A stretch of DNA of 50,520 nucleotides, taken from contig JAQBVV010000006.1 in NCBI GenBank assembly GCA_027622905.1, positions 1-50,520 of the forward strand, given 5' to 3'. This stretch comes from Acidobacteriota bacterium. Lineage in GTDB: Bacteria; Acidobacteriota; Vicinamibacteria; Vicinamibacterales; UBA2999. Of the stretch, positions 29,826-50,520 are shown piece after piece (the stretch's first letter is position 1; the number at the start of each line of letters is the position of its first letter). The notes under the pieces are model-generated. The model was given only the letters and a program-made list of their open reading frames with translations. It ran no database searches and was not told where the DNA came from. Both the position numbers and the translations under genes were made by a program.

Positions 29826-29844
29826 GCGGCCGACGGCCGGCCGC
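29826..29844. terminator. GC hairpin between convergent apaG and ubiD, no U tract
   Basis: GCGGCCG (29826-29832) pairs perfectly with CGGCCGC (29838-29844) around ACGGC, placed between the two stop codons. No T run follows on either strand, so it is a candidate barrier or bidirectional terminator of the U-less kind only. Confidence 0.4.
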
Positions 29845-31643
29845 TAATCCAGGTGGGCGCGCTCGGAATCGCCCATCGCCACGCGCCCTGACGGAAAGTA
29901 CTCCTTCCATCGACGCGTGACGAGCTGCGCGATGTCCTCGCGGCACGTCAGCTCGTCCGGGAACCCTGGCTTCAGCCGCGCATCGATGACCACCGGACCG
30001 TGGTACGCGACGTGGTTGCGCACGATCCGCCGCTCGGCCGCGTAAATGTCGGCCGCTGGCTCGAACCGCGTGAACGTCATCCACAGAAAGTTCATCGCGC
30101 TGGCAGCCGCTCGGGCAGGTTCGTCGCTGAGCACCACGAGAGGCCACCCCTCGAACGCGGCGTGTCGCGCCAGCCGCTCCGCGGCACCCGGCTCGTCCGC
30201 ATATGATGGCGCGCCGACGACGAGACACCCGCCGCAGAACACCCGCACATCGGTCACGCCCGACGGCACCTCCGCGGACTGAAACTGGCGCGGCAGGTCG
30301 CGCACGGCATCGCCGAGCCCCAGCCAGACGCCCTTCGATCCCTCGTTGACGGCCGGACCGGTGTAGTCCAGCGTGTCCATCGACAGATTCGAGAACACGT
30401 ACAGGTCCGTCTCGGCGTTGGTCCGCGCGAGCACGTGCTCGAGCGTCAGCTTGAAGTTGCGAAGGTCGACGCGCTGGTCGGTGACGAGCAGAAACTTCGT
30501 CAGCGACAGCTGGCCTTCGCCAAGGATGCGGAACGCGCTTGCCATCGCCTCCCGTTTGTAGCGCTGCTTGACGACGGCGGCACTGAGCGAATGGTATCCG
30601 GTCTCCCCGTACGACCAGAGTCCTTCGACCGCCGGCATGACGAGGGGAAACAGCGGCGACAGCAACTCCTGCAGGAGGTCGCCGATGAAGAAGTCCTCCT
30701 GGCGCGGCTTGCCGACAACCGTCGCAGGAAAAATCGCATCGGCGCGGTGCGCCATGCGCTGGACGTCGAACACCGGATAGTCGTGTGTCAGCGAGTAGTA
30801 CCCGTAGTGGTCGCCGAACGGGCCTTCCGCCTGCCGCGTGCCCGGCGGCACCTCGCCAATCAGCGCGAACTCCGCCGTGGCGATCAGCGGATGCGGGCCA
30901 TAGCCACGAACCTGCGGCAGACGTTCGCCGGCGATCAACGAGGCCAGCAGCAATTCCGGCACGTTCTCCGGCAACGGCGAGACAGCCGCGAGCATCAGCG
31001 CCGGCGGACCACCCAGAAAAACGGTCGCCGGCAGCGCCTGCCCGCGCGCCTCGGCCGCGGCGTAGTGAAACCCGCCCCCCTTGCCGATCTGCCAGTGCAT
31101 CCCCGTGGTGCGCGGGGAGTGCACCTGCATCCGGTACATCCCGAGGTTGTGGCCGGGGCGTTCGGGATGCGTCGTGTAGACCAGCGGCAGCGTGATGAAC
31201 GGCCCGCCGTCCTCGGGCCAGCACGTCAACGCCGGGAGCCGGTCCAGGCGCACGTTGCTCGTGTCGCGATCGACGACCGGCCCCTTCTCCACCCTTCTGG
31301 TACCGACCTTGAGCAGATCCATCGCCACGTCGCGCGCGCCCCACAGTCCGGCGGCCGAGGGCGGGAGCAGCGTTTCGGCCAGTTCGACGATGCGTCTGAT
31401 GAGCTGCAACGGCCGCTCGCCGAACGCCAACTCGGCGCGCCGCGCTGTGCCCATCAGATTGGTCGCGAGGCGGAAATCCGACCCTGCCACCTTGTTGAAC
31501 AGGAGCGCCGGACCTCCGGCCGCGACCACGCGTCGATGAATCTCGGCCGCTTCGAGATGTGGATCGACTTCCGCCTCCACCGTGACGACATCGTCGGCAC
31601 GACGCAGCGTATCGAGAAACGCGCGAAGGTCGGCGAAACCCAC
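29844..31643 (-). CDS. UbiD-family decarboxylase (menaquinone/aromatic acid type)
   Basis: 599 aa. UbiD enzymes use prenylated FMN to remove CO2 from aromatic or alpha,beta-unsaturated acids, including the quinone precursor. Seen: FADLRAFLDTLRR, GPALLFNKVAGSDF, TCWPEDGGPFITLPLV, HNLGMYRMQVHSPRTTGMHWQ, PATVFLGGPPALMLAAVSPLP, PLIATAEFALIGE, EGPFGDHYGYYSL with the active-site acid, and FPATVVGKPRQED. It is longer than UbiD of E. coli (497) and closer to the MqnL/menaquinone type, but the substrate is open. It begins with GTG, immediately next to an inserted repeat element, so its original upstream region was displaced. Confidence 0.9.
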   Translation of the reverse strand: MGFADLRAFLDTLRRADDVVTVEAEVDPHLEAAEIHRRVVAAGGPALLFNKVAGSDFRLATNLMGTARRAELAFGERPLQLIRRIVELAETLLPPSAAGLWGARDVAMDLLKVGTRRVEKGPVVDRDTSNVRLDRLPALTCWPEDGGPFITLPLVYTTHPERPGHNLGMYRMQVHSPRTTGMHWQIGKGGGFHYAAAEARGQALPATVFLGGPPALMLAAVSPLPENVPELLLASLIAGERLPQVRGYGPHPLIATAEFALIGEVPPGTRQAEGPFGDHYGYYSLTHDYPVFDVQRMAHRADAIFPATVVGKPRQEDFFIGDLLQELLSPLFPLVMPAVEGLWSYGETGYHSLSAAVVKQRYKREAMASAFRILGEGQLSLTKFLLVTDQRVDLRNFKLTLEHVLARTNAETDLYVFSNLSMDTLDYTGPAVNEGSKGVWLGLGDAVRDLPRQFQSAEVPSGVTDVRVFCGGCLVVGAPSYADEPGAAERLARHAAFEGWPLVVLSDEPARAAASAMNFLWMTFTRFEPAADIYAAERRIVRNHVAYHGPVVIDARLKPGFPDELTCREDIAQLVTRRWKEYFPSGRVAMGDSERAHLD

Positions 31644-31644
31644 T

Positions 31645-31808
31645 TAGTGTCGTGTCTCAGAAGTTCGTTTGCATTCGGCCGGCGATGCATCCCGCCTGGC
31701 TGCGTTGCTCGTTGGTCGCATATTCACGATATTCTCCCTCCTCGCGTCTTGCCCGTCGGGCGCCTCGCCACCCTCGGTGCGACAATGAACTTCTGAGACG
31801 CGACACTA
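31645..31808. mobile_element. 164-bp MITE-like element with 22-bp terminal inverted repeats (family B)
   Basis: Terminal repeats 31645-31666 and 31787-31808 are inverted copies differing at one position (TAGTGTCGTGTCTCAG... on the left). The core, rich in GC with an AT-rich middle (CATATTCACGATATTC), has no open frame of note. One base separates the left end from the ubiD GTG; the right end supplies the TAG stop of the DinB-family gene. No clear target duplication. Short, non-coding and inverted-repeat-bounded, so probably mobilised by a transposase elsewhere. Confidence 0.8.
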
Positions 31809-32327
31809 GCTCGCAGCGCCCGTCATCGGCTCGTCAGCGCTGCCGCCGTAGATCGACGGCACTTTGCCGCCCATCGAGCGGAGATACGAGGCGAGCTGAC
31901 CGCGATGATGGATGCCGTGGTTGTTGGCCACGCCCAGAAATGCCGCGGCCGGCAGTTGCATCATGCCGAAGAAGTCGACGGTCCGCGTGAGCTTGTCGGC
32001 CAGCAGGGCCCGCAGCTTCGCGATCCGCTCGGGAAACTCGCGGGTGTAGAACGCGACCAGGTCGCTGACGCTGGCGAACGTCGCCGCCGCCTTCTTTTCC
32101 CCTTCGGGATCGTCGTCGAACTTCCCGTTGATGATGCCGTCGAGAAACCAGATGTCGCCGAGCGCCACGTGCGTCGCCAGCTCCCACGCCGTTCGGGACT
32201 TGGCATCCGGCTTGTAGCTCCGGCCGCTCTCGGGAACGGCGGCGAGCACCCTGGCGGTGGTCTTGCATTCGTTGTCGAACATGTTCGCGAAATACGTTGT
32301 CAGAAACGTGGCCTGATCTGCATTCAT
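31806..32327 (-). CDS. DinB/YfiT-family putative metal-dependent enzyme
   Basis: 173 aa. Four-helix DinB-like fold with the three-His metal site: AWELATHVALGDIW near residues 46-59, and NNHGIHHRGQLASYLRSMG near residues 139-157. Family members include mycothiol- and bacillithiol-S-transferases; others have unknown roles, so function is not defined here. The start at ATG 32327 is backed by AAGGAGAG eight bases upstream; the longer reading to 32534 is not conserved. The stop TAG is created by the end of the adjacent inverted-repeat element. Confidence 0.85.
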   Translation of the reverse strand: MNADQATFLTTYFANMFDNECKTTARVLAAVPESGRSYKPDAKSRTAWELATHVALGDIWFLDGIINGKFDDDPEGEKKAAATFASVSDLVAFYTREFPERIAKLRALLADKLTRTVDFFGMMQLPAAAFLGVANNHGIHHRGQLASYLRSMGGKVPSIYGGSADEPMTGAAS

Positions 32328-32368: not shown

Positions 32369-34039
32369 TTATCGCGTCAACTTCCGGTATTTGATCCGGT
32401 GCGGCGTATCCGCATCGGTGCCAAGGCGCCGCTTCCGGTCGGCCTCGTAGTCCTGATAGTTCCCCTCGAACCACACCACGCCGCTGTCGCCCTCGAACGC
32501 GAGCATGTGCGTGGCGATCCGGTCGAGGAACCACCGGTCGTGGCTGATGACCACCGCGCAGCCGGCGTAGTTCAGCAGCGCTTCCTCGAGCGCGCGTAGC
32601 GTGTCGACGTCCAGATCGTTGGTCGGCTCGTCCAGCAGCAGCAGGTTCGATCCGCGCTGCAGGAGCTTGGCCAGATGCAGGCGGTTGCGCTCGCCGCCCG
32701 ACAGCGTGCCGACCTTGCGCTGCTGCTGCGCGCCCTTGAAGTTGAACCAGGAGACATACGCGCGCGACGCCACCGGACGCGTGCCAACCATCAGCTCATC
32801 CAGGCCGCCCGATACTTCTTCCCAGACACTCTTGTTCGCCGCCAGCGCATCGCGGCTCTGATCGACGTAGCCAACCTGCACGGTCTCGCCAAGCCGCAGC
32901 GTGCCGCTGTCCGGCGTCTCTTCGCCGGTGACCATGCGAAACAGCGTGGTCTTGCCCGCGCCGTTCGGACCGATCACGCCGACGATGCCGCCGGGAGGCA
33001 ACGTGAAGCTGAGATCGTCGATGAGCAGCAGATCGCCGTAGGCCTTGCGGATGTTGCGAGCCTCGACCACGACGTTTCCGAGACGGGGCCCCGGGGGAAT
33101 GTAGATCTCGACCTGGTCGAGCTTCTGCGCCGTATCTTCGTTGAGCAGGCTTTCGTACGAGTTGAGGCGCGCCTTCCCTTTCGACTGCCTGGCCCGCGAC
33201 GACATCCGGATCCACTCCAGCTCTCGCTGCAGAGTCTTCTGTCGCTTGCTCTCGGTCTTCTCTTCCTTGGCCAGCCGCTGCTGCTTCTGGTCGAGCCACG
33301 ACGAGTAGTTGCCCTTCCACGGGATGCCCGACCCACGGTCGAGTTCGAGGATCCATTCGGCCACGTTGTCGAGGAAGTACCGGTCGTGCGTGACTGCCAC
33401 CACCGTGCCCTTGTAGTCCTTCAGAAACCGCTCCAGCCAGGCCACCGACTCTGCGTCCAGGTGATTGGTCGGCTCATCCAGCAGCAGCAGATCAGGCGAC
33501 TTGAGCAGCAGACGACACAGCGCCACGCGACGTCGTTCGCCACCTGACAGCGTCGTCACATCCGCATCAGGCGCCGGACAGCGCAACGCATCCATCGCCA
33601 GTTCGAGCTGCGAGTCGAGCTCCCAGGCGTTGACCGCATCGATCCGGTCCTGCAGGCGCCCCTGCTCTTCCATCACCTTGTCCATCACGTCGGGCGCCAG
33701 GTCCTCGCCGAGCTTCATGTTCAGCTCGTCGTAGCGATCCAGCAGCGCCCGCGTCTCCGACATGCCCTCCTCGACGTTGCCGAGAACGGTCTTCTCCGGA
33801 TCCAGTCGCGGCTCCTGCGGCAGAAAACCCACCGAGATGCCGTCGGCCGCGAACGCCTCGCCGATGAACTCCTGGTCCTCGCCCGCCATGATCTTCAGCA
33901 GCGAACTCTTCCCGGATCCGTTCAGCCCGAGCACGCCGATCTTCGCGCCCGGCAGAAACGACAGCCAGATGTCTTTGAGTACCTGAGAGTCGGGAGGATG
34001 CACCTTCCCGAGCCCCTTCATCGTGTAGATGTATTGCAT
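32369..34039 (-). CDS. ettA: Energy-dependent translational throttle protein EttA (ABC-F)
   Basis: 556 aa, no membrane segments, two ATP-binding cassettes in tandem, as in E. coli EttA (555 aa). It binds the ribosomal E site and gates entry into elongation according to ATP/ADP. First cassette: [40 protein letters not shown]. The ABC-F linker is helical and charged ([22 protein letters not shown] seen in part). Second cassette: [35 protein letters not shown]. The N-terminal [16 protein letters not shown] is diagnostic of EttA within the ABC-F family. Stand-alone, with its own 246-bp upstream gap. Confidence 0.97.
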
Positions 34040-39346: not shown

Positions 39347-39447
39347 GAGCGTTTTTCGATTCGGTGGAGACCGAGAACCGCGGGAAAGCGCTTTTCGAAA
39401 AGGCCTGGTTCCTGCGAGAAGCCCTAGACCGAATCGAAAATCGCGCT
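39347..39447. repeat. Dispersed palindromic repeat, family A, copy 2 (complete)
   Basis: About 101 bp with inverted ends: AGCGTTTTTCGATTCGGT (39348-39365) and ACCGAATCGAAAATCGCGCT (39428-39447), differing by a 2-bp indel and few mismatches. The interior carries CGGGAAAGCGCTTTTCGAAAAGG. It matches 25026-25109 over its first 84 bp. It touches the next element at 39446. Non-coding. Confidence 0.82.
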
Positions 39448-39632
39448 AGTACTCCTTTGTCAGATTCCGAGACTTGCCATGAGGTGGGGGCATGTCCGGA
39501 GCGAAACCGTAGTCAACGTAAGCGCGAAGCGAGTCTGATTGCCTCTGTACAGGCACGGCCCCCCTCGAGCTGAGCCGGTTTCGTGGAGGACATGCCCACA
39601 CCTCATGCGGCGTTCTGACAAAGTAGTACTAG
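39446..39632. mobile_element. 187-bp palindromic MITE-like element (family C)
   Basis: Outer inverted repeats CTAGTACTCCTTTGTCAGA (39446-39464) and its complement at 39614-39632 match at 18 of 19; inner inverted repeats 39478-39497 and 39588-39607 (CATGAGGTGGGGGCATGTCC type) match at 19 of 20. Almost the whole element can fold into one hairpin. Ends resemble family B in starting TAGT and containing TCAGA. The right end overlaps the TAG stop (39629-39631) of the Crp/Fnr remnant. No open frame inside. Confidence 0.82.
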
Positions 39633-40156
39633 TCGTGCAGTACGACCGTCAGGAGGGACTCGTTGACCTTGATGCCGCCGTTGTATTCGATGAAGCCGAG
39701 GTCCCGGAACTTGTTCATGAAGAAGTTGATGCGGGGGCGGGTTGTACCCACCATTTCGGCGAGCGTCTCCTGCGACATTTTCGGCAAAGGGAGCAGCTTG
39801 CCCAGTGTGCCGTAGCGGGCGAGGAGGAGCAGGGTGCGCGCGAGGCGTTTCTCGCTCGAGTTGAACAGCTGATCGACAAGGTCCTCCTCGATCCGGATGT
39901 TGCGTGCGAGCATGTGCACGAGGAACCGGTCCGCCAGATCGCGCTCCGCGCGCAACACCTCGAGCATCCTGGACTTCGCGATGACCATGGCCGCGCTCTC
40001 GCTCAGCGCTGACGCGGATGCCATGCGCCGCGGTTGCCCGGCGAGACACCCCTCGCCGAAAAAGTCACCAGGGCCCAGAAGCGCCACCACCGCCTCTTTG
40101 CCGCTCGGCGACACCACCGAGAGCTTGACGCTACGGAAAAAGACCGTGCATGGCAA
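39629..40156 (-). pseudogene. Crp/Fnr-family regulator lacking its N-terminal third of the sensor domain
   Basis: 175 codons starting with TTG directly after an in-frame TGA. The C-terminal part is well preserved: VSPSGKEAVVALLGPGDFFGEGCLAGQPRRMA (end of the cyclic-nucleotide-binding barrel), the dimer helix LVHMLARNIRIEEDLVDQLFNSSEKRLARTLLLLA, and the helix-turn-helix MSQETLAEMVGTTRPRINFFMNKFRDLGFI, ending VVLHD. Relatives have about 45-50 more residues at the start, of which only a scar (TVFFRSVKLSV) is left. No start codon of quality or ribosome site is present. Probably inactive, though the DNA-binding domain is intact. Confidence 0.75.
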
Positions 40157-50114: not shown

Positions 50115-50134
50115 GCGGCGCCGCGAGGCGCCGC
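50115..50134. terminator. GC hairpin with GNRA-type loop between convergent genes
   Basis: GCGGCGCC (50115-50122) and GGCGCCGC (50127-50134) pair perfectly around GCGA, a GNRA tetraloop. It lies 12 bp after the DUF1499 stop and before the convergent TerC-family stop. No T run, so a U-less or mutual transcription barrier is only a possibility. Confidence 0.45.
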
Positions 50135-50172
50135 GCTCCGGGACTTATCCAAGGAATCACGGTTCCAGGGGA

Positions 50173-50520
50173 CTATTCCGTGTACGGCCGATGAAGACGC
50201 ACCGGCGTGGCGCGGCCGCGAACGCGTAGATTGATCATCTCCACGAACACCGAGAACCCCATCGCGAAGTAGATGTAGCCCTTAGGAATAGGCTGGTCGA
50301 ATCCTTCGGCGATCAACGAGACACCGATCAGCAGCAGAAAACTCAGCGCCAGCATCTTGACCGTGGGATGGCGGTCGACGAACTCGCCGATCGCGCTGGC
50401 CGACACGAGCATCACGCCGACGGCGATGGTGACGGCGAGCACCATCACGGCGACGTCGTCGGCCATGCCGACCGCCGTGATCACCGAGTCGAGCGAGCAC
50501 ACGACGTCGAGCAGAAGAAT
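50173..50520 (-). CDS. TerC-family integral membrane protein, C-terminal part (partial)
   Basis: About 115 residues before the stop; the gene continues past the window edge. Conserved TerC stretches: LLLDVVCSLDSVITAVGMADD, two helices MVLAVTIAVGVMLVSASAIG and MLALSFLLLIGVSLIAEGF, then IPKGYIYFAMGFSVFVEMIN. TerC-type proteins are associated with tellurite resistance and metal-ion export in exoenzyme metallation (manganese). The acidic DxxxSxDS motif is kept. Full domain content cannot be seen. Confidence 0.88.
   Translation of the reverse strand: MLLLDVVCSLDSVITAVGMADDVAVMVLAVTIAVGVMLVSASAIGEFVDRHPTVKMLALSFLLLIGVSLIAEGFDQPIPKGYIYFAMGFSVFVEMINLRVRGRATPVRLHRPYTE

Follow-up and report, generated by a model that had tools for sequence, protein, structure and literature searches.

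A 160-bp IS630-type MITE, probably pasted into the stop codon of a dinB-family gene in an Acidobacteriota genome, and the hairpin core that it has in common with elements of other ends

In the 50,520-nucleotide stretch of Acidobacteriota DNA analysed here (the window), a short palindromic element fits exactly between the stop codon of a dinB-family gene and the start codon of a ubiD-family decarboxylase gene (Table 1). It is very likely, with a probability of about 0.92, that this element is an IS630-type MITE that was mobilised in trans and inserted at the TA of the dinB stop codon. As such, it is an ordinary insertion of its type, whose exact fit is tidily explained, and it is the shared, covarying core of the element, with its exchangeable ends, that deserves further study.

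Table 1. Positions in the window of the element, its parts and the adjoining genes
Feature	Position	Strand	Basis or remark
ubiD-family decarboxylase gene, 599 aa, intact, GTG start one base from TA copy	29844..31643	-	PF01977, 231 bits
TA target duplication, ubiD-side copy	31645..31646	.	
MITE, non-autonomous, 160 bp	31647..31806	.	TIRs and TA duplication; repeated in own genome
TIR at ubiD-side end, GTGTCGTGTCTCAGAAGTTCGTT	31647..31669	+	Same ends as IS630-family IS in L246, L247, L249
Conserved imperfect-hairpin core, common to elements with unrelated TIRs	31676..31779	+	Alignment, covariation, covariance-model match
TIR at dinB-side end, GTGTCGCGTCTCAGAAGTTCATT on minus strand	31784..31806	-	
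TA target duplication, dinB-side copy, first two bases of dinB stop codon	31807..31808	.	
dinB-family gene, 173 aa, stop TAG 31808-31806	31806..32327	-	PF05163, 51 bits; homologues in 59/59 relatives searched
ABC-F ATPase gene (ettA-like), upstream of dinB, same strand	32369..34039	-	ORF

An earlier note on this DNA had described an inserted element of 164 bp at 31645-31808, and both its position and its nature were borne out by the repeat arms, the TA duplication and the copies found elsewhere, while the size was refined to a 160-bp element plus both TAs. The arms (31645-31669 and 31784-31808) are 25 nt long, 92% complementary and 114 nt apart, forming the inverted repeat of rank five in the 50.5-kb window, and the folding energy of the element reached z = -6.2 on either strand, with none of 200 same-composition shuffles as low. 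The transposed unit has the termini GTGTCG...CGACAC and TIRs of 23 bp, and no transposase frame lies within its 160 bp. Read on the minus strand, the region runs from GCG AGC TA into GTGTCGCGTCTCAGAAGTTCATT and, at the other end, from AACGAACTTCTGAGACACGACAC into TA A GTG GGT TTC. Thus, a single base (31644) does separate one end from the ubiD GTG (31643-31641, minus strand), as had been noted; the other end does meet the dinB stop, but of that TAG only the G comes from the element, the TA being derived from the target. An Rfam search of the region gave only two chance matches, well below gathering scores, and a similarity search of plasmid and phage DNA with the element gave none. Searches of the open-access PMC literature yielded no description of the family. 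A REP/BIME origin (RAYT-mobilised single palindromes of 20-40 bp that lack a two-ended TIR and a target duplication) was ruled out by the 160-bp length, the long TIRs and the TA duplication.

The count of copies in the same genome (G000; 3.43 Mb, 239 contigs, 97% complete), proposed as a check in the earlier note, yielded 34 BLAST places related to the element, at unrelated sites. At least four copies, that of the window included, have the window TIR type; the other matches have the inner part in common and different ends, the window TIR being confined to few. Many copies were located at contig ends, as expected, since repeats break assemblies. Element matches were obtained in 30 of 59 relatives, and the TIR pattern TAGTGTCNNGTCTCNGAAGTTCG was present in 9 of 119 genomes of relatives. 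In the same genome, GGACCC-ended copies with the same core on contigs 18 and 234 (L018, L019, L017) are near-identical to one another, indicating recent activity; some of their flanks suggest a 3-bp TWA duplication and others (TTA/TAA) do not.

The window TIRs are also those of intact, autonomous IS630-family elements in relatives (L246, L247, L249/L268, L270). In L246, L247 and L249, a window-type end was found beside a DDE transposase frame, and L249 is complete, a unit of about 1.15 kb bounded by CTAG on either side, with both ends and a 364-aa frame. The transposase corresponds to NF033545 (IS630), scoring 262 and 251 bits where the cut-off is 100, and to DDE_3 (71 bits), and homologues of the IS630-type transposase occur in 53 of 119 genomes. 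No match to the transposase of this IS630 clade was obtained in the own assembly and, therefore, the mover is missing, lost or situated in an assembly gap; MITEs usually have a matching transposase in their own genome, but they do not require one. Work on ISY100 established that IS630 elements duplicate TA (PMC2170065), and the IS630 preference for TA in CTAG is credited to Tenzen and Ohtsubo (1991), as cited in PMC2170065. In the present data, the flanks of the window TIR type are mostly CTAG, with TTAG, GTAG and CTAA variants, and nearly all full-length IS630 relatives with detectable ends lie in CTAG. The suspected preference for CTAG-like sites is thereby upheld, the copies elsewhere showing mostly CTAG flanks and not the random targets that the earlier note had named as counter-evidence. 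Additionally, the flank pairs TTAG/CTAG (window copy), CTAG/CTAA and GTAG/CTAG have only TA in common, an asymmetry that fits a 2-bp TA duplication and does not fit a 4-bp one. In several old copies of the window TIR type, a recognisable TA is gone on one or both sides.

The exact fit between the two genes results from the fact that YTAR contains TAA and TAG, which are often stop codons in this GC-rich DNA. An open frame of at least 100 codons already ends at 272 of the 628 YTAR sites (43%) and at 98 of the 210 CTAG sites (47%) in the acidobacterial loci that were surveyed. Among the insertion sites, 20 of 32 end long open frames (Fisher p = 0.04 versus the YTAR background), a modest excess that the survival of harmless, gene-sparing insertions would give. 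Hence, the precise fit from which site preference had been deduced does reflect a CTAG-like preference, but invoking it as a special property is mostly unnecessary, since a YTAR target is often a stop anyway. Elements targeting the TA in YTAR often meet TAA or TAG stops and restore them, so that the adjoining proteins survive, and YTAR targeting accounts in this way for insertions of the 'impossibly exact' kind. In at least eight cases, IS630 elements even take the TAG stop of their own transposase from the duplicated CTAG target; right ends with such a target-derived stop were seen in L268, L270, L274, L275, L283, L285, L289 and L290.

In most close relatives, dinB and ubiD are adjacent and co-directional, and the stop and the start often abut, as in G011 (AGC TAG GTG), G026 (AGC TAG G GTG), G004 (GGC TAG G GTG) and G019 (ATG TAA C GTG). 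In G017, dinB is absent and ubiD directly follows the ettA-like gene (KLTR stop CGCC GTG), the protein end of the ettA-like gene of the window being found there immediately upstream of ubiD (L102). UbiD is 86% identical to its homologue in G009, where the 151-nt gap at the junction is occupied by another insert, flanked by TA and about 150 bp long, that differs from the window element. Judging from these junctions, the ancestral layout is a tight array (ettA-dinB-ubiD, or ettA-ubiD without dinB) with no intergenic region. The proposal that ubiD had lost its own upstream region is thus not supported, since in relatives the two genes abut (TAG followed at once by GTG, or a 1-nt gap). Nor did the spacing seen in the window recur without the element: between the two genes, relatives have no gap or one of a few bases, and the 151-nt gap of G009 belongs to its different insert. 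The data contained no relative with identical flanks and no element, and the relatives used for the empty site have about 63-75% DinB identity; from them, we infer that the pre-insertion site read ...GCG AGC TAA GTG GGT... on the minus strand, with the dinB TAA directly before the ubiD GTG.

Other, unrelated short palindromic repeats are also found at the junction just upstream of ubiD, in L098 (G009), L107 (G013), L109 (G014), L110 (G031) and L115 (G006). These repeats, as well as the excess of insertion sites at the ends of long open frames, could be taken as signs that integration specifically recognises the junction of the dinB stop and the ubiD start as a hotspot. This is improbable, considering that the repeats are of different kinds and that the excess is small and explained by the survival of gene-sparing insertions. 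Even less probable is that an IS5/IS1182-type transposase moved the element and duplicated a 4-bp YTAR target (TTAG/CTAG after a later point change). It is true that E. coli IS5 uses YTAR (PMC10359306) and that CAGCCC-type sister elements with the same core and CAGCCCGTGG ends have 4-bp duplications (identical 4-mers in 31 of 74, including CTGG/CTGG and TTGA/TTGA). Their partner was found in the same genome at L263:1277-2735, an IS1182-like element (184 bits where the cut-off is 270; DDE_Tnp_1), and PF13340 had no match in that genome. However, the window TIRs match IS630 elements and differ from the IS1182-like ends, the flank asymmetry of the window TIR type fits TA only, and for the window copy itself a 4-bp duplication is ruled out by its TTAG/CTAG flanks. 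Finally, the element might have arisen where it now lies, as a host regulatory sequence (attenuator, terminator or promoter) of the dinB-ubiD junction. The strong hairpin in both directions and the covarying core would agree with this reading, but it is the least credible one. Dozens of unrelated places in this genome and its relatives have the same sequence, with target duplications and transposon ends, and these copies largely refute an in-place origin; the junction is empty in relatives or holds other repeats; and promoter and terminator consensus are both absent from the element.

For the insertion of an IS630-type MITE, the course of events would be as follows. An IS630-family (Tc1/mariner-type) transposase would have cut and pasted the MITE in trans, the target being the TA of the dinB stop, presumably TAA at that time, and the TA would have been duplicated at both sides of the MITE. 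Since the element begins with G, the dinB stop would have changed from TAA to TAG and, the stop being restored in this form, neither protein would have been altered. As a consequence, 160 bp would now separate ubiD from the dinB 3' end, where its translation-initiation context had been located, and the ubiD 5' leader in the co-transcript would form the outer strand of a 23-25-bp stem. The earlier note had expected a ubiD promoter either from the element or from dinB read-through. A consensus search recognised no promoter-like site in or near the element, nor any terminator consensus within it, and read-through was already the likely source of ubiD mRNA before the insertion, as ubiD is the downstream gene of a tight array. 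When the predicted dinB-ubiD transcript was folded, the ubiD leader from -20 to -1 lay in the TIR stem with a mean unpaired probability of 0.11, versus 0.26 for the same leader in the reconstructed empty junction, so that, within the co-transcript, pairing in this stem would sequester the region where ubiD translation begins. Both the distance from the dinB 3' initiation context and the position of the leader in the stem imply that translation and coupling should drop; it is therefore predicted from the folding model that ubiD translation is reduced and its coupling broken, unless initiation adapts.

The inner part of the element, of about 104 bp, is common to elements with different TIRs, with a cross-type identity of up to 95%. 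At least seven TIR types carry it (TGTC, CAGCCC, GGACCC, TGGTCTG, TACTGCG, TCCCCTGG and TGGC), and on a tree of 97 cores the seven types need 13 changes; as the cores were gathered by core patterns, the TIR-type frequencies are not unbiased. Nineteen diverse cores could be aligned without much gapping and fold as one imperfect hairpin, in which 94.7% of cells are paired. The alignment contains 62 double changes; shuffles gave 17.6, none of 500 reaching the observed number, and the slid controls never exceeded 13. The mismatched stretches between the paired core segments are also conserved, which argues against a simple copying of one arm onto the other. The covariance model matched the window core with 110 bits (E 6.5e-24) and detected the core in 49 of 297 Acidobacteriota genomes, and a pattern scan added four gammaproteobacterial contigs. 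Candidatus Rariloculus, a gammaproteobacterium, has CAGCCC-ended elements (L152, L185) with a core 88% identical to that of the window, and these cores suggest spread between phyla.

On comparison of sequences, one core is carried by the ends of two transposase classes, the IS630-type (TA) and the IS1182-like (4-bp). It could be proposed, tentatively and at slightly less than even odds, that these elements form a modular MITE superfamily of Acidobacteriota, in which the core is under selection as an independent unit and the ends, served by two unrelated transposase classes, are exchanged; as part of this proposal, the core possibly aids transposition or host tolerance. If the core is indeed an independent structured passenger that changes its ends, MITE families should be classified by their cores as well as by their ends, and the core would have a function still to be found.

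Among known systems, RUP of Streptococcus pneumoniae, Correia/NEMIS of Neisseria and Nezha of cyanobacteria are, like the window element, short palindromic MITEs (PMC2229807, PMC3049150). RUP and Correia measure about 100-160 bp and have TA at their termini, and it was the TIRs that placed RUP in the IS630 family and linked Nezha to ISNpu3-like elements (PMC2229807, PMC3049150). In contrast to these, the window element is unrelated in sequence, resides in an Acidobacteriota host and has a core that is also found between different TIRs. With IS630/ISY100 (Tc1/mariner-like) it has in common the TA duplication, the CTAG preference and, in the matching autonomous elements, a DDE_3 transposase, whereas it encodes no transposase itself and its partner was not found in the own assembly. 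ERIC, an imperfect palindrome of intergenic regions, measures about 127 bp, has TA termini and may lie inside operons and affect mRNA (PMC2229807); it differs from the window element in sequence and host, and its TIR is listed as 7 bp, versus 23 bp here.

Further elements of the window and its genome were recorded. The IS1182-like element L263:1277-2735, on contig 35, is a complete IS with CAGCCCGTGGTGAAA ends in CTAG/CTAG, and the stop codon of its transposase frame is the target-site TAG. A second MITE-like element of the window (39446-39632), with TIRs CTAGTACTCCTTTGTCAGA / TCTGACAAAGTAGTACTAG and a long internal inverted repeat, is flanked by CTAGs at 39446-39449 and 39629-39632, the right one holding the TAG stop of a Crp/Fnr-like gene (39629-40156, minus strand; family named by eye). 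Additionally, a truncated half copy of a related element, with a TCCCCTGGAACC-type end, lies at 50120-50175 of the window and has 96% identity over 49 bp to the own-genome copy L022.
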